From the NCBI GenBank assembly GCA_947494565.1, contig CANLVG010000008.1, positions 248,001 through 312,000 on the forward strand: 64,000 nucleotides of DNA. Reading direction: 5' to 3'. The position numbers were made by a program, and so were the translations under genes. The notes beneath the pieces were generated by a model, which searched no databases, was not told the DNA's origin, and was given only the letters and a program-made list of their open reading frames with translations. The stretch is from an uncultured Flavobacteriaceae bacterium (GTDB lineage: Bacteria > Bacteroidota > Bacteroidia > Flavobacteriales > Flavobacteriaceae). Positions 2,164-52,127 of this stretch are shown here, in pieces (position 1 is the first letter of the stretch; each line of letters starts with the position of its first letter).

Positions 2164-3456
2164 ATGAAGTACAAGCAAATTTCCAATTCCCTTTTTAAAA
2201 AAAACCGCAAAAAATTCATGGCCCAAATGAAGCCAAAGAGTATTGCTATCTTTAATTCAAATGATATCTATCCGATAAGTGCTGATAGTACCATGCCTTT
2301 CGAACAGCATCGCGATATTTTTTATTTGAGCGGCGCGGACCAGGAAGAAACGATTTTATTACTGTTTCCAGAGGCAATGGACGCAGCTCATAGGGAAGTG
2401 CTCTTTGTACGGGAGACCAATGCACATATTGCGGTTTGGGAAGGTGCTAAATTGACGAAGGAAAAAGCGACGGAGGTATCAGGAATCAAGACCATTTATT
2501 GGCTCACCGATTTTGATAAGGTCTTCTTCGATTTAATGACGGAAGCCGAAACAATTTACTTTAATACCAATGAGCATTATCGCCAGGCAGTAGAAACCCA
2601 AACCCGGGAAGATCGGTTTATCGCAAAATGTAAGAAGGAATATCCTGCGCATTCGTATGCAAAGAGCAATCCGATTTTACAGGAGATTAGAGGAGTGAAG
2701 GAGGCTGAGGAAATCGAATTGATGCAGACCGCTTGTGACATCACCGAGAAGGGATTCCGCAGATTGTTGGGTTTCATCAAACCAGGAGTCTGGGAATATG
2801 AAATTGAAGCGGAATTATCCCATGAATTTTTAAGAAATCGCTCCAAAGGCTTTGCCTATGCCCCGATTATCGCTTCAGGAGACAATGCGAACGTCTTGCA
2901 TTACCTTGAGAACAATAAGCAATGTAAGGATGGAGATATGCTTCTTATGGATGTGGCCGCGGAGTATGCGAATTACTCCAGTGATTTGACACGTACCGTT
3001 CCGGTTTCCGGGAAGTTTACCCAACGCCAGCGGGATGTCTACAATGCGGTTTTACGGGTGAAAAATGAAGCGACCAAGCTATTGGTACCCGGAACTATTT
3101 GGGCGGAATACCATAAAGTATGCGGGAAGTTGATGACTTCGGAACTTTTAGGATTAGGATTGTTGGATAAGGCCGACGTGCAAAACGAGAACAAAGATTG
3201 GCCAGCATATAAAAAATACTTTATGCACGGTACCAGTCATCACATCGGGTTGAACACGCATGACTATGGGGAATTAAAAACGCCGATGAAAGCGAATATG
3301 GTCTTTACGGTAGAGCCTGGTATTTACATTCCTGATGAGCAAATGGGTGTTCGTTTAGAAGATGATGTTGTAATCCAAGAAAGCGGGGCACCCTTGAATC
3401 TAATGGCGACGATTCCGATTGAAGTGGAGGAGATCGAGGAGTTGATGAACGCATAA
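2164..3456 (+). CDS. pepP: Xaa-Pro aminopeptidase (aminopeptidase P, M24B)
   Basis: 430 residues, the usual size for aminopeptidase P, which removes the N-terminal residue from peptides with proline in second position. The N-terminal third matches the aminopeptidase P N-domain (PFEQHRDIFYLSG). The C-terminal pita-bread domain shows all five metal ligands: Asp in MDVAAEYANYSSD and the second Asp of the same motif (about residues 263 and 274), His in HGTSHHIG (about 355-360), Glu in VEPGIYIP (about 383) and Glu in GVRLEDD (about 398). There is no signal peptide, so it is cytoplasmic. A TACATTTA box lies 20 bp upstream of the start, a possible but weak -7 element. It is followed by a bidirectional hairpin terminator. 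Confidence 0.93.
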   Translation: MKYKQISNSLFKKNRKKFMAQMKPKSIAIFNSNDIYPISADSTMPFEQHRDIFYLSGADQEETILLLFPEAMDAAHREVLFVRETNAHIAVWEGAKLTKEKATEVSGIKTIYWLTDFDKVFFDLMTEAETIYFNTNEHYRQAVETQTREDRFIAKCKKEYPAHSYAKSNPILQEIRGVKEAEEIELMQTACDITEKGFRRLLGFIKPGVWEYEIEAELSHEFLRNRSKGFAYAPIIASGDNANVLHYLENNKQCKDGDMLLMDVAAEYANYSSDLTRTVPVSGKFTQRQRDVYNAVLRVKNEATKLLVPGTIWAEYHKVCGKLMTSELLGLGLLDKADVQNENKDWPAYKKYFMHGTSHHIGLNTHDYGELKTPMKANMVFTVEPGIYIPDEQMGVRLEDDVVIQESGAPLNLMATIPIEVEEIEELMNA

Positions 3457-42680: not shown

Positions 42681-43610
42681 ATGAAAAAAATCGTACTTAC
42701 GATTGCGGCGACCCTCGCATTCGTTACCACTTATGGTCAGACCATCGATGAATTAAAAGGAGCACAAGCTGCTAAAAAAGACTCTATCGCCGTAATACAG
42801 GCAAGAGTAGATGCCCTACAGGGCCAAATAGATGCATTCCCGGGTTGGAAGAAAGGTATTTTCGGCACGTTAGGTGCAAATCTATCCGGTTCCAAAAATT
42901 GGTACCAACAAGGTACTCCGAACAACTCCGCCGGAAATATAGGGATAACACTCAATGGATTTGCCAACTTGGATAAGGACAAATTTTTCTGGAGGAATTC
43001 TGGAAATATCAATGCACAATGGGTGAAAATCGATAACAAGGATATCGACACCGATGACGACAGCTTCAATAGTACTACCGACGTATTTAATATCACTTCG
43101 CTTTATGGATACAAGCTAAGTGATAAGTTCGCCATTTCTGGCCTTGGGGAATACCGGACATCGATCATTAATAATTTTAATGACCCAGGTTATCTAGATT
43201 TAGGTATCGGAGCCACTTGGACGCCGATTACCGATATGGTCGTTGTAATTCACCCGTTGAACTACAACTTCGTTTTTGCAAAAGATGATGTGGCCTATGA
43301 ATCGTCAACAGGTGCAAAAATCTTGGTCGATTATACCAGAAAGATTGGAGCAATCAACTTCAAGACGAACTTTTCTACCTTTCAGAGTTATAAAAGTGGA
43401 GACTTGAGCAATTGGACATGGATTAACTCATTTGGCTATACCTTCTGGAAAGGAATCGGATTAGGTTTCGAATTTGGACTGAGAGGAAATAGGCAAGAGG
43501 CCTTTGCCAATGCCCTAGCGCAACCTGGCGTTGATCCAGCGCTTACAATAGGAGAAGTCGACAGCCCAACACAGAGTTATTGGCTTTTTGGATTGAACTA
43601 TTCGCTTTAA
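42681..43610 (+). CDS. DUF3078 predicted outer-membrane beta-barrel protein
   Basis: 309 residues from the ATG at 42681, which opens a clean signal peptide (MKKIVLTIAATLAFVTTYGQ); longer frames upstream are not signal-like. A short charged helix (ELKGAQAAKKDSIAVIQARV) follows, then a beta-rich domain of alternating strands with FSTFQSYKSGDLSNWTW, ending SYWLFGLNYSL with an aromatic-rich last strand. Probably an outer-membrane barrel of unknown function. Last gene of the suf region; it has its own -7 box and is followed by a hairpin terminator. Confidence 0.87.
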   Translation: MKKIVLTIAATLAFVTTYGQTIDELKGAQAAKKDSIAVIQARVDALQGQIDAFPGWKKGIFGTLGANLSGSKNWYQQGTPNNSAGNIGITLNGFANLDKDKFFWRNSGNINAQWVKIDNKDIDTDDDSFNSTTDVFNITSLYGYKLSDKFAISGLGEYRTSIINNFNDPGYLDLGIGATWTPITDMVVVIHPLNYNFVFAKDDVAYESSTGAKILVDYTRKIGAINFKTNFSTFQSYKSGDLSNWTWINSFGYTFWKGIGLGFEFGLRGNRQEAFANALAQPGVDPALTIGEVDSPTQSYWLFGLNYSL

Positions 43611-43641: not shown

Positions 43642-43665
43642 AACGTCCCGCGATTGCGGGACGTT
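43642..43665. terminator. Hairpin terminator after DUF3078 gene
   Basis: Perfect stem AACGTCCCGC / GCGGGACGTT with loop GATT. The plus strand continues TTTGTCTT, a moderate T-run. On the minus strand no T-run follows, so termination of a leftward RNA here would be weak. Confidence 0.8.
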
Positions 43666-43800
43666 TGTCTTAAGTAGGATTCGTAAATTTGGTTGTTAGT
43701 CAAAATTCGAACTCTTGATTCAAGTTCGAGTAAAAATCCAAATACTAGATTTTCGGTTAAGACTACGGTTTCTTTGGGACAAACACTAAATCTCAAATAC
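43642..43800 (-). ncRNA. Candidate small RNA, copy 1 of a three-copy family
   Basis: Read on the minus strand, this stretch aligns with 43927-44096 and 50407-50579. Shared blocks in order: a GTGTA-TT start, a 6-bp helix TTGAGA/TCTTAA closing a loop with TGTCCCAAA, CTTAACCGAAAA, AACTTGA and CCTACTT just before the hairpin. The helix shows compensatory change against the other copies (TTAAGT/ACTTAA). A local hairpin CGAACT/AGTTCG is special to this copy. The terminator has no T-run on this strand, so this copy may be degenerate. No open reading frame of note. The RNA itself is inferred. Confidence 0.4.
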
Positions 43801-43805
43801 ACTAA

Positions 43806-43871
43806 CGAATGTAACGGAGTCGATGAAGACGGCTAAACTTTTGTTGTGAAGCTGGTAAAAACTGTTGTGAA
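43806..43871 (-). promoter_or_regulatory. Promoter and twin operator of small RNA copy 1
   Basis: Minus-strand reading: two copies of TTCACAACA (43863-43871 and 43842-43850) with a 12-bp spacer, 4 bp later TTTAG (43833-43837), 19 nt later TACATTCG (43806-43813), two-mismatch or better to TAnnTTTG. Spacing is identical in the other two copies. Confidence 0.45.
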
Positions 43872-43926
43872 ACGCGTTAAAAGGTGTGGTCTCTTCGACG
43901 AAATGCATTCGTTGTACCAGTGAAAT

Positions 43927-43959
43927 AAAAAATCCCCGTCACGTTGACGGGGATTTTTT
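43927..43959. terminator. Strong bidirectional intrinsic terminator between the tandem copies
   Basis: Fifteen-bp stem AAAAAATCCCCGTCA / TGACGGGGATTTTTT with loop CGT. No coding gene ends here on the plus strand, but a leftward RNA from copy 2 would end with a six-T run. This is the best evidence that the element is transcribed on the minus strand. Confidence 0.88.
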
Positions 43960-44096
43960 TAAGTTAAGTAGGTATCGTAAGATTTAGGTTCCGATGTTAC
44001 TCGGTATTTCTTAGGTCAAGTTTCTTTTTTGGGGAAAAGAAAACTTTTTTCGGTTAAGTTCAAGAGTCGATTTGGGGTCAATACTTTCACTTAATT
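43927..44096 (-). ncRNA. Candidate small RNA, copy 2 of a three-copy family
   Basis: About 170 nt on the minus strand from a predicted start near 44097 to the terminator. Blocks shared with copies 1 and 3: AGTGTA, helix TTAAGT/ACTTAA around TTGACCCCAAATC, CTTAACCGAAAAAAGTTTT, CCCC, AACTTGA and CCTACTT. It is closest to copy 3. Unlike copies 1 and 3, no protein gene shares its terminator, which supports a free-standing RNA gene. No protein-coding potential noticed. Type and function unknown; Rfam models of flavobacterial RNAs (6S-Flavo, Flavo-1) would be the first comparison. Confidence 0.55.
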
Positions 44097-44102
44097 ACAC
44101 TG

Positions 44103-44168
44103 TAAATATAGGTTCGATTTGAAAGGTCTCTAAATTATTGTTGTGAACTGGTTGGATATTGTGGTGTG
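44103..44168 (-). promoter_or_regulatory. Promoter and twin operator of small RNA copy 2
   Basis: Minus strand: TTCACAACA (44139-44147) preceded 21 nt upstream by a decayed second copy (six of nine matches, 44160-44168), then a 4-bp gap, TTTAG (44130-44134), 19 nt, TATATTTA (44103-44110; one mismatch to TAnnTTTG). Confidence 0.5.
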
Positions 44169-44216
44169 TCCGACGAACGACAATCTCGATTCGATGAACA
44201 GCATAACCATTTATGC

Positions 44217-45722
44217 TTATTTTCCATTCCCTCCTTTAATTTTAAGGACAGCATTCTTTGAATGTCCGTATTCCGAATTTATGGACAACGATTTTTCAAA
44301 GCATTCCAGTGCTTTTGATTCATTGCCTGACAAAAGATGGGCATCTCCTAACATGGACCATGAATACTCATCTGGAAATGTATCAGTATACAATTCAAAA
44401 ATTTTGACCGCGGCATCGGGGTCACCTGCGTTCATTAACTCCGTTCCGATTTCCTCAAAATCATAGTCCACAAAAGGAACATAGGCCGTATCATTTTTAT
44501 ACTTCTGGTAGGTGCTAAACGCCACTGCAATGCCGTTGGAGATGTATTCGTTAGAGAATAATCGGGGTAGGGAAATCCGATCGAGCTGATAAGGGGCTCG
44601 GTTTAGAATACGCATCGGAGTTGTAAAAGTATAGCGGTCGGTTTCTACATTATTCGTAAGCAAAATGACACATTGGTCCTTTTTGAGGTTTCGTATCAAA
44701 AAACTGCGTCCCCCTTGAAATCCTCCGGAATGGTAAACTATTTTTCCAACGGTGCTATCCTTAGCTACTTGCCAACCAGTACCTACAACTGCGGGATAAT
44801 TTGATTTTTCATTGATCGTAAACTCCTTTTTACCATTTAATGTAATTGGGTCATACATTTTGGTAAGAGAGGCTATAGATAGTAGTACATTGTTTTGAAG
44901 TGCCGTATGAAACTTGAGCAAATCCCCAGCTGTGGTGTGAATCGAGCTTGCACCATAAATGTTATCGAAAGTTGCGCTATCTTCAATATTTGCGGCCAAT
45001 GTATCGACCAGATGAAATCGCTTTGACAGCCATTTTGGTTTCCGATAATACGACACCACATTTTTTTGGAGGTGGAGAGGTACATTTCTCTCAAACAAAA
45101 ATGTCCGGTGCATGCCGGAAGGCTCGAAAATATGTTGCTGTAAAAATTGCTCAAATGACAATTTCGAAATTTTTTCGATGATGAGCGCAAGAAAAATATA
45201 ATTGGTATTCGCGTAGTTGTAGTTGGATCCAGGAGAAAAGTATAATTCTGGAGCCACTCGGGTATAGACCTCCAATAGTTCCTCATTGGTATACCCTTTG
45301 CCTGAAATCTCTTTTCTAAAGGGGTGTATTTGAACCTTGGGCAAGCCCGACGTATGCGAGAGCAAGTGTTGTATGCGAATCCCATGGTAAGGCAGACCGC
45401 TGAGATGTTTTGTCAGATCATCGTTCAAATTAAGAAGGCCCCGTTCTACCAATTGCATAGTAGCAACTGCTGTAATCGTTTTCGAAACCGAAGCGACGTT
45501 GAACATATGCTGTGGCCTTAATGGCGTGCGATCATCGTAATTTGAAAACCCGAAGGACCTTTCATAGATGATCTTGCCTTTTTCTGCAATGAGAATGTTT
45601 CCGTTAAAACCGCGCTGCAGATTCAAAACGGTGAATACCGAATCGATTTCTGCTAACTGTTGTGCTTGAAGTGCCGTGTTCGAGACGGCCATGAGTACTA
45701 ATAAAAAGGACAGTCTTTTCAT
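44217..45722 (-). CDS. Exported serine beta-lactamase-like hydrolase with C-terminal TPR
   Basis: 501 residues with signal peptide (MKRLSFLLVLMAVSNTALQAQ). Catalytic motifs of the class C/PBP4* superfamily: SxxK in ASVSKTITA (about residue 79), YxN in YNYANTNYIF, HxG as YHSGGFQGG. C-terminal residues 415-500 resemble tetratricopeptide repeats (SMLGDAHLLSGNESKALECF). Same layout as the gene at 19319-20785. It is divergent from the histidine kinase gene; three 11-bp-phased GGTTAA repeats stand at the expected -33 position of its promoter (CATATTTG at 45745-45752, minus strand), so it is probably a target of the neighbouring OmpR-type regulator. Confidence 0.92.
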   Translation of the reverse strand: MKRLSFLLVLMAVSNTALQAQQLAEIDSVFTVLNLQRGFNGNILIAEKGKIIYERSFGFSNYDDRTPLRPQHMFNVASVSKTITAVATMQLVERGLLNLNDDLTKHLSGLPYHGIRIQHLLSHTSGLPKVQIHPFRKEISGKGYTNEELLEVYTRVAPELYFSPGSNYNYANTNYIFLALIIEKISKLSFEQFLQQHIFEPSGMHRTFLFERNVPLHLQKNVVSYYRKPKWLSKRFHLVDTLAANIEDSATFDNIYGASSIHTTAGDLLKFHTALQNNVLLSIASLTKMYDPITLNGKKEFTINEKSNYPAVVGTGWQVAKDSTVGKIVYHSGGFQGGRSFLIRNLKKDQCVILLTNNVETDRYTFTTPMRILNRAPYQLDRISLPRLFSNEYISNGIAVAFSTYQKYKNDTAYVPFVDYDFEEIGTELMNAGDPDAAVKIFELYTDTFPDEYSWSMLGDAHLLSGNESKALECFEKSLSINSEYGHSKNAVLKIKGGNGK

Positions 45723-45772
45723 GATGTATTGTTTTTGATTCCCTCAAATATGGGGCAACCCCTTCAATAAGG

Positions 45773-45801
45773 CGGTTAAGCAGGGGTTAAAGACGGGTTA
45801 A
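45773..45801. promoter_or_regulatory. Triple direct repeat in 11-bp phase: OmpR/PhoB-type operator candidate
   Basis: CGGTTAA-gcag-GGGTTAA-agac-GGGTTAA: the GGTTAA units start at 45774, 45785 and 45796, exactly 11 bp apart (7-bp box, 4-bp spacer), as in PhoB-type boxes. It lies about 50-80 bp upstream of the serine hydrolase start and 20 bp from a CATATTTG -7-like box, where a -33 element would be. Confidence 0.65.
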
Positions 45802-45880
45802 TGTCATTTGTCAGCATGTTCACTTGTCATTAACATAAGAAGATCAGCTTTGAGCCCACCGCAGCTCAGGGCTTTATTAA

Positions 45881-45897
45881 CGTTAATGCAGGGTTAA
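45881..45897. promoter_or_regulatory. Second GGGTTAA pair in 11-bp phase before the kinase gene
   Basis: CGTTAA (45881-45886) and GGTTAA (45892-45897) are 11 bp apart, about 50-65 bp upstream of the kinase ATG. Same box type as the triple repeat, suggesting autoregulation of the two-component operon. Confidence 0.5.
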
Positions 45898-45946
45898 CAG
45901 GCGCCATTTGGCCTATAGTGCAAGAGGTTTGCCCTATTTTTGGGTC

Positions 45947-47335
45947 ATGCAACGGAAAATAAACACTCTTATAATAACCGCGGTTTTGACGCTATTGGCC
46001 ATGACAAGCATACAGGCGTATTTGATTTACAATACGTACGAGTTGAAAAAAGATGCCTTTATCAATGAGACCAAAAAAGCCATCAGTCGAATAGATGACG
46101 AAACCGAAATGGTCGTGGAAACAAGTGAGTTATGGGGGCAGGTTTTTTCAGAGCTGCTATGGGAGTATAGATTTAAGGGTTTGAGCAAAAACCAGTTCAT
46201 AGAAGAATTGAAAAAAGAGAAAGATTCCTTTTCCAGGGCCTTCAACAAGTTGTATCAAGAAGAATTAAAGAAATCGGATCTGGGCTACGAAATCAAGTTC
46301 AAGAAGAACATTTATTCCATTATGGTCATGGATTCTATGCAAATTGATACCGTTGCGATATTTTCAAAAGAGCGACCGCTATTCGTTCTTGGTGACGATT
46401 TTGAAGAAAGCCAGGCCTACACCATCAGTCAGGCCAGATGGCAAACCGACTATACCGCCCTTGATGCCGATGGCATCGAAAAAACTGTAGAATTCCGGGT
46501 CCATACCAGAGACCGAATGAATATTTCAGAATGGCAACGCATAGTACTGGGGCGAATGGCGGCCTTGTTGGCAGGATCTGTGCTTTTGCTTCTATTTGTG
46601 GTCGGTCTGTTTTACTATTCCATCAAAAATCTTATTAAGCAAAAGAAAGTCGCTGATGTAAAAACCGATTTCATCAATAATATCACACATGAACTTAAGA
46701 CACCCCTCGCCACTTTGGGCATTGCTACGAAAAGTCTGAAAAAGCCCGAAATAAAACAATCACCGGAGGCATTTGAAAACACCTTGAATATCTTGGATAG
46801 GCAGAATACCAGACTTCAAAAGCTGATTGATCAAGTATTGACCAATAGCTTGGGTTCTGAAGAATTGACCCTGAAAAAAGAACAAGTAGTCGATGAGGAG
46901 TATATCATGAACGGTATTGCTGATTTTTCACTTTCGGTACAGGATAAAAACGTGTCTTTTACCACAAGTATTGAACCAAAGGAGGTGCTACTGACAATCG
47001 ACACTTTTCTATTCACTACAGCGCTGTTCAATATTCTTGAAAATGCGATTAAATACGGCAAGGAATCCGTCGCCATAGCAATAGAGACAAAGCTTAGCAA
47101 CGATAGGTATGAAATTCGAATATCGGATAATGGGGTCGGTATTCCACGAGAACATCTGCCCTCGATTTTCGACAAGTTCTATCGAGTGACCTCTGGAAAT
47201 GTCCATGATGTTAAGGGGCTGGGGCTAGGGCTCTATTATACGAAACAAGTCATAGACGCACATCAAGGCACCATCGATGTTGAAAGTGAACCCGATCGAG
47301 GAACAACATTTAGTATAACCATTCCAACAAATTAG
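45947..47335 (+). CDS. Two-transmembrane sensor histidine kinase
   Basis: 462 residues from the ATG at 45947 (MQRKINTLIITAVLTLLA). TM1 about residues 7-27, a periplasmic sensor region of about 175 residues, TM2 about 205-228, then HisKA with NNITHELKTPLATLG (His about residue 248) and HATPase with ILENAIKYG, DNGVGIPRE and GLGLGLYYTK. Partner of the response regulator 6 nt downstream. A TATTTTTG box ends only 5 nt before the ATG, which would mean a leaderless message. A sensor next to two serine hydrolases suggests a cell-envelope signal, by inference only. Confidence 0.95.
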   Translation: MQRKINTLIITAVLTLLAMTSIQAYLIYNTYELKKDAFINETKKAISRIDDETEMVVETSELWGQVFSELLWEYRFKGLSKNQFIEELKKEKDSFSRAFNKLYQEELKKSDLGYEIKFKKNIYSIMVMDSMQIDTVAIFSKERPLFVLGDDFEESQAYTISQARWQTDYTALDADGIEKTVEFRVHTRDRMNISEWQRIVLGRMAALLAGSVLLLLFVVGLFYYSIKNLIKQKKVADVKTDFINNITHELKTPLATLGIATKSLKKPEIKQSPEAFENTLNILDRQNTRLQKLIDQVLTNSLGSEELTLKKEQVVDEEYIMNGIADFSLSVQDKNVSFTTSIEPKEVLLTIDTFLFTTALFNILENAIKYGKESVAIAIETKLSNDRYEIRISDNGVGIPREHLPSIFDKFYRVTSGNVHDVKGLGLGLYYTKQVIDAHQGTIDVESEPDRGTTFSITIPTN

Positions 47336-47340
47336 TAGTT

Positions 47341-48027
47341 ATGACGCATGTATTATTAGCAGAAGACGATTTTGATTTTGGGAGTATTCTCAAGCAGTAT
47401 CTTGAAATACACCAATTTCAGGTGACTTGGGCAAAAGATGGTAAGGAGGCCTTGGGTCTTTTCACCACCGCTGATTTTGACATCTGCGTTTTCGATGTGA
47501 TGATGCCTAAAATGGATGGCTTTACCCTAGCTGAAAAGGTCATCGAAATCAATCCTGAGGTCCCATTCGTGTTTCTGACCGCAAAAAAAATGAAGGAAGA
47601 TAGGGTTACAGGGTTGAAGTTAGGGGCCGATGACTATATCGTAAAACCGTTCGAAGCCGACATTCTTGTACTTCGCCTCAAGAATATCTTAAAAAGAACA
47701 GGAAGGGTGCAGCCCAGAAAATCAGAAGTACATCGTATAGGAAACTATGATTTCGATGCAATCAATCACCAGTTGGTTTTTGACGGCACTGCCCAACGAC
47801 TTACTGAAAAAGAGACCCTATTGATACAGTATTTGTATCAACATAAAAATACAATGATCAAGCGCGAAGACCTCCTCAAAGACGTTTGGGGTAACGACGA
47901 CTTTTTCTCAGGAAGAAGTATGGACGTATTTATTAGCCGCCTCAGAAAATACTTTAAGCAAGACCCATCAATTGCAATTGAAAGTGTACGAGGTGTCGGA
48001 TTAACATTTAAAATCAATTTGACTTAA
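47341..48027 (+). CDS. OmpR-family response regulator
   Basis: 228 residues. Receiver with LLAEDDFDFG, phosphoacceptor Asp in CVFDVMMPKMDG (about residue 53), FLTAKK and Lys in VKPFEAD; C-terminal winged helix (LTEKETLLIQYLYQHKN, FISRLRKYF, VRGVGLTFKI). Dimeric regulators of this family bind direct repeats in 11-bp phase; such GGGTTAA repeats lie in the region between the kinase and the divergent serine hydrolase, so both are its likely targets. Confidence 0.95.
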   Translation: MTHVLLAEDDFDFGSILKQYLEIHQFQVTWAKDGKEALGLFTTADFDICVFDVMMPKMDGFTLAEKVIEINPEVPFVFLTAKKMKEDRVTGLKLGADDYIVKPFEADILVLRLKNILKRTGRVQPRKSEVHRIGNYDFDAINHQLVFDGTAQRLTEKETLLIQYLYQHKNTMIKREDLLKDVWGNDDFFSGRSMDVFISRLRKYFKQDPSIAIESVRGVGLTFKINLT

Positions 48028-48070
48028 GGAGTTTATTCATCAACCGATACCTATCAAAAACAAAGAAAAC

Positions 48071-49282
48071 ATGAAACAACTATTCATACTGGCATTACTC
48101 TTCATCACAGTAGGCCATACTTCCAGAGCACAGAGCGCTGAAGAAAAATTAGATCAAAAGTTAGACAGTATAAGCAAGCTAGATGGTCTTGCCGGATTTG
48201 GGGTTTCCGTATTCACCTTGGATACCGTATTGTTTCAAGGAGGATTCGGCTACGCCGATCTGAAAAACAAAAAACCGTATACGGTTGCGACTGTTCAGAA
48301 TATCGGGTCGATATCCAAAACCTTTACTGGAATTGCCCTCATGAAAGCAGTAGAAATGGGCAAGCTATCTATGGACACCCGAGTAAACGAGATATTGCCT
48401 TTTAAAGTAGTACATCCGAAACACCCGGAACAACAGATTACCATCAGGCATTTGGCGACCCATACCTCAGGGATTATAGACCTTGAGCAGACCTATGATA
48501 TGAGTTATGTACTCGAGAACCCAAATGAAGTAGATGCGGATGAATACAACAAGGAAATTACCAAATACATGCATCAACTCAAACAAAACACCGCTATGCC
48601 TTTAGGAGCCTATCTAAAAGCATATTTGACCAAAGGTGGCGCACTGTACAATAGAAAAAACTTTTTGAAAACAGCACCCGGAGCACGTTATGAATATTCG
48701 AATATTGCCACGGCATTGGCCGCCTATTGTGTGGAAATAGTGATGGAAGAGCCATTTCATAAGGTCACCCAGAAGTACATTTTCGATGAAATCGGAATGA
48801 GCGAAACAGGCTGGTTTTTAGATTCGGTTTCAAAAGAAAACCATGCGCAAATCTATTCGGATAACCTGAAAGTATTACCGAGGTATCAGTTGATTACCTA
48901 TCCTGACGGCGGTTTGCGAACCAATGTGGCTTCACTTACAAAATATATGCAAGTCATGATGGGGTGCTATGAAGGCCGCGAATCAATTCTCCCTACGGCC
49001 TTATGTCAACAAATGATGAAAGCTCAACTGACCCAAAGCCAATTGGGCACAGAAGACCTCGATGACAATTATGGCTTTTATTGGGAAAACAAAGGAGGCG
49101 CTACCATTGGTCATAATGGAGGAGATCCAGGCATTCTCACCTTGATGTACTACAATACTGAGATGAAGGTGGGCGCTATCTTCTTTACCAATACCAATGT
49201 TATAGACAACCCGAAAGCAGCAAGGCTGGTACAACAAAGTTGGAACGCAATTCGGGCGTACCGAAATAAAAAAGCAAAATAA
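48071..49282 (+). CDS. Exported serine beta-lactamase-like hydrolase
   Basis: 403 residues with signal peptide (MKQLFILALLFITVGHTSRAQ). Catalytic motifs: SxxK in SISKTFTG (about residue 80), YxN in YEYSNIATAL, and HNGG in IGHNGGDPG. It has no TPR extension, unlike the paralogue on the other side of the kinase. It starts 44 nt after the response regulator and is probably in its operon. Substrate may be a peptidoglycan or D-amino-acid peptide, by family analogy only. Confidence 0.92.
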   Translation: MKQLFILALLFITVGHTSRAQSAEEKLDQKLDSISKLDGLAGFGVSVFTLDTVLFQGGFGYADLKNKKPYTVATVQNIGSISKTFTGIALMKAVEMGKLSMDTRVNEILPFKVVHPKHPEQQITIRHLATHTSGIIDLEQTYDMSYVLENPNEVDADEYNKEITKYMHQLKQNTAMPLGAYLKAYLTKGGALYNRKNFLKTAPGARYEYSNIATALAAYCVEIVMEEPFHKVTQKYIFDEIGMSETGWFLDSVSKENHAQIYSDNLKVLPRYQLITYPDGGLRTNVASLTKYMQVMMGCYEGRESILPTALCQQMMKAQLTQSQLGTEDLDDNYGFYWENKGGATIGHNGGDPGILTLMYYNTEMKVGAIFFTNTNVIDNPKAARLVQQSWNAIRAYRNKKAK

Positions 49283-49319
49283 GTAACCTAACAAGAAGGA
49301 TCATTCAAAAAAGTAAAAC

Positions 49320-49775
49320 ATGAGAACGATTAAAATTACAGTTTGCATACTGTGTATGGGGCTAACGGCTCTAACGGCACAAGAAAAAGAACCGAAATTC
49401 AATTTAAGCCCTGAAGAAGTAGTCGTGTATGACTATACGGTATCAACCAAGGGAGTACAATTCGACTATCAGTTTGAAGATGACTATATGCTTAAGCTGA
49501 CCAACAAGACATACAAAATCAAACTGTTCTTCGATGAAAAGAAAAAAGAGGCCGTTCAACTTGCCCTATCTAAAATCATGGATGACGATGTGGCAACTAC
49601 CGGATTTGAAAGGACGGTATGGAAGAAAACATTGGACAACGGAAAACCCGTCTATGAAGTAGAACTGAAAGAAAATCAGTTGCTCATTCACATTAAACGA
49701 AAGCAAATGGATGATGAAGCCTACGAAAGGCTTACCAACTTAGGGCAGCGGTTTTTAGAAGCGATCAACAGTTGA
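49320..49775 (+). CDS. Small exported protein, paralogue of the next gene
   Basis: 151 residues with signal peptide (MRTIKITVCILCMGLTALTAQ). The mature part has a core KLTNKTYKIKLFFDEKKKEA followed by VWKKTLDNGKPVYEVELKEN and LLIHIKRKQ, which lines up with YKVRAKFNAEKTAKI, WRVAVDGITSYEIKIDEGN and LRIFVDK of the next gene. Family not recognised. It follows the serine hydrolase by 38 nt in the same operon and ends 12 nt before the next start. Confidence 0.75.
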   Translation: MRTIKITVCILCMGLTALTAQEKEPKFNLSPEEVVVYDYTVSTKGVQFDYQFEDDYMLKLTNKTYKIKLFFDEKKKEAVQLALSKIMDDDVATTGFERTVWKKTLDNGKPVYEVELKENQLLIHIKRKQMDDEAYERLTNLGQRFLEAINS

Positions 49776-49786
49776 TAACAAGCACT

Positions 49787-50404
49787 ATGAGAGTACTAGT
49801 ATACATTCTAATCAGTATGGCACTAAGCCTTGCAACAGGTTATGCCCAAGAAGATTCGACGGTGACTTCCGATAAACAGGAGGAGGGATCAGGTCTTTCA
49901 ATTTCATTTGACGGAGATCTTTCCTTTTCGGGAAATGAAAACACTTATTTTTCAACAAGTGATTCCGATGACACTTATAAGGTTCGCGCAAAATTCAATG
50001 CCGAGAAAACGGCAAAGATCAGAGCATATCTGCTTGAAGAGTTCGGTAAAAAACAGCTAAAGGTTTCTGGAACAAAACAACAATGGCGGGTAGCTGTAGA
50101 CGGCATCACCAGTTATGAAATCAAGATAGATGAGGGAAACTTGAGAATTTTTGTGGATAAGGAACTGGCTTCTTCGAGTACGTTGAGCAAGATGAAGGCC
50201 ATCACCAAAAACATCAAGGCCCATACTTCCGGAAAATCACGGGAACAACGCGAAGCGGAAAAAGCGAAGCGTGATAAAAGTCGTCTTGATCGAGAAGCGG
50301 CCCAAAAGATACGGGAAGCTGAACGTTTAAAAAGAGAAGCCGAACGCTTAGAGCGAGAGGCCGCCCGTTTAGAAAAAGAAGCGAATGCAAAGCGCAACAA
50401 GTAA
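49787..50404 (+). CDS. Exported protein with C-terminal charged helix
   Basis: 205 residues from the ATG at 49787 (MRVLVYILISMALSLATGYAQ), better than a TTG 15 nt upstream. The middle domain is related to the 151-residue protein upstream. The last 55 residues (SREQREAEKAKRDKSRLD onward) are almost only Arg, Lys, Glu, Ala and Leu, with sevenfold units AERLKRE-AERLERE-AARLEKE, a single alpha-helix or coiled coil that could span the periplasm or bind an anionic surface. Last gene of the two-component operon, ended by a strong hairpin terminator. Confidence 0.78.
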   Translation: MRVLVYILISMALSLATGYAQEDSTVTSDKQEEGSGLSISFDGDLSFSGNENTYFSTSDSDDTYKVRAKFNAEKTAKIRAYLLEEFGKKQLKVSGTKQQWRVAVDGITSYEIKIDEGNLRIFVDKELASSSTLSKMKAITKNIKAHTSGKSREQREAEKAKRDKSRLDREAAQKIREAERLKREAERLEREAARLEKEANAKRNK

Positions 50405-50406
50405 AT

Positions 50407-50435
50407 AAAAAACCCTCCGTTACGGAGGGTTTTTT
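50407..50435. terminator. Strong bidirectional intrinsic terminator
   Basis: Thirteen-bp stem AAAAAACCCTCCG / CGGAGGGTTTTTT with loop TTA. It ends the kinase operon on the plus strand and would end small RNA copy 3 on the minus strand, with T-runs both ways. Confidence 0.9.
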
Positions 50436-50579
50436 ATCAAAGTAGGTTTGGGTTAATTTGGTTTGGTGTTTTTAAGTTTACTAAATCAAGTTCTGATCTG
50501 GGGAGAAAAAAACTTTTTTCGGTTAAGTTCGTGCCCTGCTTTTCAGCAGGTAGATTTGGGTCAACACATTCACTTAAAT
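50407..50579 (-). ncRNA. Candidate small RNA, copy 3 of a three-copy family
   Basis: About 173 nt on the minus strand. It shares with copies 1 and 2 the TTGTA start, helix TTAAGT/ACTTAA, TTGACCCAAATC, CTTAACCGAAAAAAGTTTT, CTCCCC, AACTTGA, CCTACTT and the terminal hairpin. Inside the helix this copy carries an extra perfect hairpin CCTGCT-GAAA-AGCAGG; the loop is a GNRA tetraloop only on the minus strand, a further hint at the transcribed strand. No coding potential noticed. Transcription is inferred. Confidence 0.55.
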
Positions 50580-50585
50580 ACAATG

Positions 50586-50651
50586 TAAATATAGAGACGA
50601 TTGGGATAGTAGCTAAATTATTGTTGTGAAGTGGTCGCTAGCTGTTGTGAA
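50586..50651 (-). promoter_or_regulatory. Promoter and twin operator of small RNA copy 3
   Basis: Minus strand: two perfect TTCACAACA boxes (50643-50651 and 50622-50630) 21 bp apart start-to-start, 4-bp gap, TTTAG (50613-50617), 19 nt, TATATTTA (50586-50593). The rest of the gap to 50915 shows nothing further. Confidence 0.52.
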
Positions 50652-50915: not shown

Positions 50916-52127
50916 TTAGTACTGATCCAAGTGCTCAGGATAAAGAAAGTTGTTATACGGAAAGCGCGTCACATGAATCTCACGTACTTCGTTATAGACC
51001 CTTTTTCGAAACTCGTCCAAATTCTCCTTGTTCAAGGCCGAAATAAAGAGTACACGATCTCCAAGCTTATCCATCCAAGTTCTTTTCCACTCTTCTATAG
51101 TGAAATGTCGCCCGGTTTTCTCGGTCATTAAATCGTCTTCCTCAATGGTTTCGTGCTGGTATTGGTCGATTTTATTAAAGACCATGATCGTCTTTTTGTT
51201 CGAACTGTTGATTTCTCCCAAGATTTTGTCCACAGACTCGATTTGCTCTTCGAATTGCGGATGCGAGATGTCGACCACATGCAACAAGAGGTCCGCCTCA
51301 CGAACCTCATCCAGCGTACTTTTAAAACTCTCTACCAACTGGGTAGGTAACTTACGGATGAATCCTACCGTATCGCTCAGAAGAAAAGGAAGATTTCCGA
51401 TAACGACCTTCCGTACGGTCGTGTCTAGGGTAGCAAAGAGTTTATTTTCGGCAAAGACATCACTTTTACTAACCACGTTCATAAGGGTCGACTTGCCCAC
51501 ATTGGTATATCCGACCAAAGCAACTCTGACCAAAGCTCCTCTATTGCCACGTTGGGTTTCCATTTGACGATCTATTTTGAGAAGTTTCTTCTTCAAAAGA
51601 GAAATACGGTCGCGCACGATACGCCTATCGGTTTCGATTTCGGTCTCCCCAGGTCCGCGCATTCCAATACCCCCTTTTTGACGCTCAAGGTGCGTCCATA
51701 GACCGGTCAGCCTAGGAAGAAGAAACTCGTATTGTGCCAGTTCGACCTGGGTGCGCGAATAACTCGTTTGCGCACGTTGCGCGAAAATATCAAGTATGAG
51801 ACTCGTACGATCTATAATTTTACAGCGCAATTGCTTTTCGATATTCCGCTGTTGGGCCGGCGTGAGCTCATCATCGAAAATCACCGAACCGATTTCATGT
51901 TCTTCTACATAGGCCTCGACCTCTTTCATCTTTCCGCTCCCGATCAATGTTTTGGGGTTGGGCACATCCATACGCTGTACAAAGCGTTTGTACACTTCGC
52001 CGCCGGCTGTATAGGTCAAAAACTCTAGCTCATCGAGAAATTCGGTTACTTTTTCCTCATTTTGCTCTCGATTGATGACCCCGATTAATACCGCTTTTTC
52101 GTATGCTATGGATTTTCTTTCTAACAT
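50916..52127 (-). CDS. hflX: GTPase HflX
   Basis: 403 residues. HflX N-terminal domain (VYKRFVQRMDVPNPKTLIGS, DDELTPAQQRNIEK), the signature RGPGETEIETDRR, then the GTPase domain: G1 GYTNVGKST, switch region ATLDTTVRK, G3 DTVGFIRKLP, G4 FNKIDQ. Ribosome-associated GTPase that splits stalled ribosomes under stress. A TAATTTTG -7 box lies on the minus strand at 52144-52151, 17 bp from the start. Confidence 0.96.
   Translation of the reverse strand: MLERKSIAYEKAVLIGVINREQNEEKVTEFLDELEFLTYTAGGEVYKRFVQRMDVPNPKTLIGSGKMKEVEAYVEEHEIGSVIFDDELTPAQQRNIEKQLRCKIIDRTSLILDIFAQRAQTSYSRTQVELAQYEFLLPRLTGLWTHLERQKGGIGMRGPGETEIETDRRIVRDRISLLKKKLLKIDRQMETQRGNRGALVRVALVGYTNVGKSTLMNVVSKSDVFAENKLFATLDTTVRKVVIGNLPFLLSDTVGFIRKLPTQLVESFKSTLDEVREADLLLHVVDISHPQFEEQIESVDKILGEINSSNKKTIMVFNKIDQYQHETIEEDDLMTEKTGRHFTIEEWKRTWMDKLGDRVLFISALNKENLDEFRKRVYNEVREIHVTRFPYNNFLYPEHLDQY

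Follow-up and report, generated by a model that had tools for sequence, protein, structure and literature searches.

Two-component systems that act through several sibling small RNAs (sRNAs) are a known kind of regulatory circuit, represented by csRNA, Qrr and LhrC, and are textbook matter in Streptococcus, Vibrio and Listeria. The Qrr RNAs are the output of one response regulator, the sigma-54 activator LuxO, and one qrr gene adjoins luxO; CiaR, the regulator of the csRNAs, is of OmpR type, and LisR, the regulator of LhrC, is not known to be a LytTR protein. A LytTR regulator drives an RNA from paired direct repeats in the cases of RNAIII (AgrA, Staphylococcus) and VR-RNA (VirR, Clostridium perfringens), both of them single-copy, larger RNAs of Firmicutes. 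Here, we describe three elements on the minus strand of a 64,000-nucleotide stretch of DNA (the window) from an uncultured Flavobacteriaceae bacterium (GenBank assembly GCA_947494565.1, contig CANLVG010000008.1), which look like sibling sRNA genes of one unreported family, designated family A, in many marine flavobacteria. We consider it probable that a LytTR two-component system acts through these sibling RNAs. The window corresponds to C8:248001-312000 of the source genome (G000; 5.39 Mb, 45 contigs).

Among the described systems, LhrC1-5 of Listeria monocytogenes resembles family A in that five sibling sRNAs stand under one two-component system, LisR, and LhrC is presented as binding mRNA by C-rich motifs repeated within and between the RNAs (PMC4132741); it differs in its Firmicute host and its Shine-Dalgarno targets, and was absent from both the gathering and the permissive Rfam matches of the three copies. 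The csRNAs of streptococci, with 2-6 siblings in tandem and distal positions under one response regulator, CiaR, and the Qrr RNAs of Vibrio, with 4-5 sibling sRNAs, are likewise similar in kind, as summarized in PMC4211561. The csRNAs differ in sequence (the Rfam csRNA model scored 22.2 bits, its gathering score being 57), and Qrr belongs to another phylum, its sequence being compared via Rfam only. Closer in host, FopS/GibS of Bacteroides thetaiotaomicron are multicopy paralogous Bacteroidota sRNAs with a conserved promoter, differing in their 14 members and their binding by RbpB, and the portions of PMC11697453 that describe them mention no LytTR site; Rfp18 of Flavobacterium psychrophilum is described as a genus-conserved Flavobacteriaceae sRNA (PMC9723704). 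The comparison with FopS and Rfp18 was by description only.

At the gathering score, no Rfam family matched the three copies, and at a permissive level (E up to 10, two regions) only low scores appeared, the best being Phe_leader (E 0.0041, 30 bits against 55); we take these matches, mostly terminator hairpins, as chance. The Rfam models 6S-Flavo and Flavo-1, which a first-pass annotation of this DNA had proposed for comparison, gave no match at either level, no tRNA or tmRNA was found, and no match identified the copies as remnants of a known repeat or gene. Within the open-licence PubMed Central literature, we found no description of family A, of LytTR-controlled sRNAs in Bacteroidota or of the link to the regulator described below.

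Three putative sRNA genes on the minus strand

All three elements lie where the first-pass annotation had placed them and follow the order of parts that it had read from the letters of the sequence: twin 9-bp boxes of LytTR type (direct repeats 21 bp apart, 9 + 12), TTTAG, a 19-nt spacer, a -7 box and a predicted RNA of about 160-177 nt. Copy 1 has two perfect boxes, TTCACAACA-N12-TTCACAACA (43842-43871), a promoter at 43806-43837 (TTTAG at 43837-43833, 19 nt, -7 box TACATTCG at 43813-43806) and a putative sRNA of ~160 nt (43642-43802; 67.2 bits) with the 3' hairpin CGTCCCGCAATCGCGGGACG. In copy 2, the boxes CACACCACA-N12-TTCACAACA (44139-44168) precede a promoter at 44103-44134 (TTTAG, 19 nt, -7 box TATATTTA) and a putative sRNA of ~172 nt (43927-44100; 83.6 bits), which is composed of helix I, hairpin 1, hairpin II with a CCCC loop, the linker CCTACTTAAC and a strong intrinsic terminator. 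Copy 3 again has two perfect boxes (50622-50651), a promoter at 50586-50617 (TTTAG, 19 nt, -7 box TATATTTA) and a putative sRNA of ~175 nt (50407-50583; 81.1 bits), and the extra GAAA-loop hairpin noticed in it earlier, CCTGCT-GAAA-AGCAGG, is real. TTTAG, spacer and -7 box were correctly assigned in 3/3 copies. The first box of copy 2 (CACACCACA) is degenerate.

The promoters of the three copies are predicted to be of the Bacteroidota sigma-A type. In F. psychrophilum, the sigma-A -7 consensus TAnnTTTG is placed at -12 to -5 (PMC9723704), which would put the +1 of the copies a few bases inside the assigned starts. Box 2 followed by TTTACANTGTA at fixed spacing occurs at 8 places in the source genome (≤3 mismatches), against 0 for the reversed pattern, which is more than chance would give, and the relatives described below settle the point. 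Copy 1 is missing from these 8 because its -7 region differs.

A 3' hairpin is present in each copy, as annotated, but that of copy 1, though strong, lacks a proper run of T on the minus strand, and our terminator script scored none. This hairpin lies where the DUF3078 gene, which is convergent, ends (43610), just as the terminator of copy 3 lies at the end of the convergent gene 49772-50404, so both hairpins could serve those genes too. The strong terminator of copy 2 is indeed present (43927-43960 region). It had been remarked that no protein gene ends there; however, a same-strand beta-lactamase-fold gene stops at 44217, leaving only ~50 bp to the boxes of copy 2, which makes read-through into copy 2 possible in the source genome.

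Family A in the Flavobacteriaceae

A covariance model (R1) was trained on the RNA part of nine copies, without the promoter. With E ≤0.05 and stricter filters, R1 matched 1-5 times per genome in 33 of 397 genomes of the family, which represent 23 of 237 genera; at least two matches were found in 22 of the 33 positive genomes and one in the other 11 (E ≤0.05). At E ≤0.5, 93 matches were obtained in 53 contexts, that is, the window and 52 further loci. Twin boxes stand upstream of all 93 (0-4 mismatches of 18), 54 of them perfect, at a distance of exactly -68 in 85, -69 in 6 and -64 in 2, whereas 9300 random places gave such boxes 38 times, in part perhaps because real elements were struck. Since R1 contains no promoter, the boxes provide an independent check of the family. 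Two or more related genes thus share one regulator site, as is expected of sibling sRNAs. The earlier view, that of several regulated sRNA copies belonging to no described family, is supported, as a wider alignment shows covariation (in hairpin II, and only weakly in helix I) and the copies correspond to no known repeat or gene; the LytTR type of the boxes, hairpin II and the C-rich loops had no part in it.

A search with a 30-base string over 84,980 named species returned 27 stretches, with boxes at 32/32 matches. The named carriers are Maribacter, Zobellia, Pseudozobellia, Ulvibacterium, Euzebyella, Kriegella, Aurantibacter and uncultured Flavobacteriaceae, and two further carriers are metagenome-assembled genomes named only Bacteroidetes or Bacteroidia. 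A degenerate core pattern was run over 148 genomes (the source genome and relatives). Three further members of the genus yielded true homologues, and two of these genomes, G003 and G013, carry copy types 3, 2 and 1 in tandem; a fourth match (L053), read by eye, was rejected as chance inside a gene.

In G003, types 2 and 3 (L138 8083-8586) are near-identical from box 2 to hairpin II and then diverge, which suggests gene conversion between copies. Another site of A copies (L093, L098, L101, L104, L109 and L118) lies beside orthologues (~84%) of the window gene 2164-3456; in the window itself, no A copy was found beside that gene.

Structure and predicted mode of action of the family A RNAs

Read from the 5' end, the RNAs show GTAATTAAGTGATAGTGTTGACCCCAAATC and then a stretch that varies, followed by ACTTAACC and hairpin II; after these come ACTTGACCTA, a third part that is again variable, and finally CCTACTTAAC and a predicted terminator. 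A simple script scored a terminator in 81 of the 93 RNAs (copy 1 is among the 12 unscored), and these 81 measure 122-201 nt, with a median of 167. Palindromes like TCCCGATAGCTATCGGGA (L139 6349-6446 and 6830-6932; L111 9083-9185) lie at the variable spot where copy 3 has its GAAA hairpin, and hairpin insertion seems to be tolerated there.

Hairpin II covaries. In an alignment-free test, the native arms gave a mean of -6.0 kcal/mol, against -3.3 when arms were swapped between RNAs, and stability was above the swapped mean in 62/73; in 65 of the 73 distinct hairpin II cases, the run of C was left unpaired with a stem closing around it. Seventeen of the 93 RNAs have no run of C in the tested range and were left out. 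In a model-fitted alignment of 93 rows, which is biased towards structure, 86.2% of cells pair, compared with 75.0% after shuffling, and cells with double changes number 116, compared with 37. CCC+A motifs 5' of the terminator are also in excess (196 in the 93 RNAs vs 88.6 in shuffles), and 71% of them lie in apical loops vs 28% in shuffles. Most RNAs have two (49) or three (26) such motifs, while two RNAs have four, 12 have one and four have none.

On balance, we lean slightly towards base pairing as the mode of action. The A RNAs would act in trans on target mRNAs, changing their translation or stability, with contacts made by the apical loops, which are rich in C (CCCCAAA, in most cases two or three to an RNA), and by the linkers CUURACC and CCUACUU; having several copies, each with several sites, would allow a strong response. 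CsrB and RsmZ are sponges for CsrA, and the repeated CCCCAAA-loop hairpins of family A might similarly titrate an RNA-binding protein instead of pairing with mRNAs. The presence of two or three CCC+A motifs before the terminator in 75/93 RNAs, their apical placement, a loop that is kept while its stem changes and the several copies per genome would all suit a sponge, but conservation also covers the linkers and is strong over the 5' 30 nt, which appears to exceed the needs of a loop-binding protein, and we regard the sponge as unlikely.

The string AUAGUGUU is common to family A and to a second short family (family B, described below), and TAGTGTT lies within the first 40 nt of 45/93 A RNAs. 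The complement of this common string, AACACTAT, is found ≤15 nt before an ATG at 80 places in the source genome, against 49 for the reversed pattern, a mild enrichment that we treat as only a lead for pairing. Inspection of 30 of the 80 places gave 15 rows (12 loci) with open reading frames (ORFs) of ≥60 aa and no common theme, several lying inside longer open frames. The result of a smaller scan was weak, with 8 rows vs 2-4 for control motifs in the contexts of relatives and 2 vs 2-3 in DNA of the source genome.

A candidate LytTR regulator of the twin boxes

Sites of LytTR proteins are described as paired 9-bp direct repeats, mostly with 12-bp spacing, just upstream of a promoter, as in ACCACTTAC-12 bp-ACCACTTGC (PMC6193735, Tables 2-3). 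The twin boxes have this geometry, with repeats ~12 bp apart directly upstream of the -35/-33 element in 93/93 cases (≤4 mismatches), which points to a LytTR regulator. LytTR genes number 44 in the source genome. All nine RNA-positive genomes compared, with 9-28 LytTR genes each, have one LytTR type in common (profile match 3-89), which, read by eye among the matches listed, is absent from five RNA-negative genomes; for G025, 11 of the 12 LytTR matches were among those listed. The regulator was absent from the same five genomes by protein search too, and its genes are near-identical in ten genomes. We therefore regard the REC + LytTR (Pfam) protein encoded at G000:C1:571639-572391, whose next gene encodes a TPR + HisKA_2 + HATPase protein, as most likely the regulator of the twin boxes.

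Protein search (E ≤1e-60) found this regulator in 82 of the 397 genomes, with an identity of at least 84% in 69 and down to 57% in the rest. Regulator and RNA occur together in 33 genomes, the regulator only in 49, the RNA only in 0 and neither in 315 (Fisher 5e-26); for perfect twin boxes, the corresponding numbers are 68, 14, 1 and 314 (3e-61), both p-values overstating the association because related genomes are not independent. G237 (C31:5767-5796) is the sole genome of the 397 with perfect twin boxes and no regulator at the cut-off, and its genus-mate G413 has a diverged regulator of 60% identity. A broader model, R2, was run on 40 of the 49 regulator-only genomes, those of the nine lowest regulator identities being left out, and matched in 12 of these 40, compared with 0/40 regulator-negative genomes. 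Boxes were found at 13 of the 14 new R2 matches (≤5 mismatches, -68 to -74); the match without them (L224) was rejected as false, and one with them (L222, G359) precedes a peptide gene as its leader.

The gene for the regulator is itself accompanied by boxes. Within 900 bp downstream of it (377 bp in G450), twin boxes (≤3 mismatches) were found in 72/82 genomes, compared with 1/1640 shuffles. Near other LytTR loci of the source genome and 13 other genomes they were found in 1/50, with a wider range and both strands considered. A comparison of 20 of the 44 LytTR loci of the source genome with the 52 contexts, looking for LytTR genes beside A copies, gave one weak match (L090). These data bear on another explanation, in which the sRNA family is the same, the boxes are bound by one or more other LytTR paralogues and the co-occurring regulator is a mere marker of the clade. 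The 44 LytTR genes would leave room for it, and clade effects inflate the co-occurrence tables, but a marker of the clade would hardly account for boxes that adjoin the candidate gene in 72/82 genomes and other LytTR loci in 1/50, nor for a regulator type matched in 9/9 RNA-positive and, among the matches listed, 0/5 RNA-negative genomes. We consider it quite improbable.

Further elements behind twin boxes

Downstream of the regulator, 37/82 genomes, including 17 of the 33 A-positive ones, have the exact 19-nt core TTTTCATATAGTGTTCTCG, and 5 more of the 82 regulator loci have it with one mismatch. For the 38 cores (one genome has two), twin boxes lie 70-150 bp upstream with ≤4 mismatches in 37 and 5 in one, and a run of T follows 36/38. 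We predict that these elements are a second short sRNA-like family under twin boxes, family B; the source genome has further cores at C1:40180 (L041) and C5:394797 (L047) and probably at C13:155432. The position of family B beside the LytTR regulator resembles that of the qrr gene beside luxO. Family B was also seen at L171-L173 and L176-L178, and the complement of its core resembles a translation start (AACACTATATGAAAATG).

A third element, a loose motif around CCCAAATCTTA, lies downstream of the regulator in 28/82 genomes. Its promoter and terminator were judged by eye; it was seen at L171, L173, L176, L177 and L179, and a terminator of the AAAGGCTATGC..GCATGGCTTTTTT kind often comes after it. 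Rfam at gathering score gave no match in eight loci with family B or third-type elements. Near-perfect twin boxes were also seen 5' of genes read as LRR-like (L005, L014) and of one read as sigma-factor-like (L012), and a triple-box site lies at C17:18921-18971 (L009) of the source genome.

The same twin-box promoter also precedes a gene for a small peptide of 33-35 codons (...YKNDxxSGxxxLxKxLFML) at L042/L135, L052 and L222. It encodes 35 aa at C8:212548 of the source genome (L042/L135) and 34 aa in G002, where it lies beside a type 1 copy, and in G359 (L222) an A-like leader stands directly 5' of the 33-aa ORF. Such an arrangement could mean that the A elements are leaders or remnants of this peptide gene, as decayed or alternative mRNAs. 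That is very improbable in our view, as 42/93 A RNAs contain no ATG-started ORF ending inside the RNA and the longest ORF is 28 aa, counts on which we reject a coding reading of the A RNAs; moreover, no frame of the conserved 5' segment GTAATTAAGTGATAG is free of stops, and hairpin II and the terminator look selected.

Genomic neighbourhood of the three copies

The left neighbour of the sRNA locus is the DUF3078 gene (42681-43610, plus strand), upstream of which lie genes that we take to be suf-like. The right neighbour is a GTPase gene (50916-52127, minus strand; Pfam GTP-bdg_N/M, MMR_HSR1), presumably HflX-like. Matches to these neighbours are common to 31 and 30 of the 52 contexts, respectively. 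With ≤5 similar copies per genome, some of them in tandem, a mobile or palindromic DNA repeat without RNA function might be imagined, but we reject this reading on account of the shared neighbours, and an architecture running from promoter to terminator, together with stem changes that preserve pairing, leaves it next to no probability.

Copies 2 and 3 are parted here by ~6.2 kb (44217-50404), which is not the case in G003 or G013. This stretch codes for the beta-lactamase-fold protein, a HisKA kinase, a response regulator (OmpR-like by eye) and three more genes. In G039 (L126), too, an 81% relative of that OmpR-like regulator has sRNA copies on both sides.

Discussion

The circuit that we propose would start with a signal sensed by the TPR-HisKA_2 kinase and lead to a phosphorylated LytTR regulator. 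This regulator would bind the two 9-bp repeats directly upstream of the sigma-A promoter and activate the A copies along with other RNAs behind twin boxes, such as the short family B. That the boxes abut the -33 element suggests activation as the direction of control.

Several points weigh against a LytTR system acting through family A. The transcription of the family is predicted from DNA sequence, and the link between regulator and boxes is one of occurrence and neighbourhood, its significance being overstated owing to relatedness. No A match was found with R1 in 49/82 regulator-positive genomes and no R2 match in 28/40, 14/82 have no perfect twin box, and 10/82 regulator genes have no boxes nearby; the many regulator-positive genomes without A matches indicate that the regulator does not need family A. 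Another of the 44 LytTR proteins of the source genome could bind the boxes. The support for RNA structure is uneven. Helix I (TTAAGT/ACTTAA), which the first-pass annotation had put forward as the covarying element, pairs in 97.2% of cells in a structure-free alignment of 54 chosen rows (11-50% when slid), but already in 95.8% in shuffles, with double changes in only one pair. The change to TTGAGA/TCTTAA in copy 1 does exist and consists of one double change and a G-U, but in the wider alignment helix I is hardly supported by covariation, and it is hairpin II that covaries better. For the 93-row alignment, RNAalifold returned no base pairs, and for mixed alignments few or none; copy 1 is among the 17/93 RNAs with no second run of C in the tested range. 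The AACACTAT search in the source genome identified no target mRNA. Bacteroidia ribosomes are described as ignoring Shine-Dalgarno sequences (PMC9976891), so the usual G-rich target of C-rich loops is missing.

A broader possibility, which we hold tentatively and at somewhat less than even weight, is a hub of marine Flavobacteriaceae in which one LytTR system would control up to three kinds of RNA (A, B and C) together with the small peptide, passing on its signal mainly by RNA. In such a hub, A would be the multicopy kind with C-rich loops, B a short kind with a near-invariant core, and C, the third element, a further short RNA. With ribosomes that ignore Shine-Dalgarno sequences, the C-rich loops would on this reading have to find targets of another kind, and that would amount to a new rule of sRNA recognition.

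Bacteroidota are important in algal polysaccharide breakdown. If a LytTR system does act through family A, an RNA-based control circuit like that of the Vibrio quorum-sensing RNAs would follow for marine flavobacteria. The regulator, at least 84% identical in 69/82 genomes, together with the RNA-like elements that adjoin it, offers a testable entry point to such a circuit in Zobellia, Maribacter and Euzebyella.

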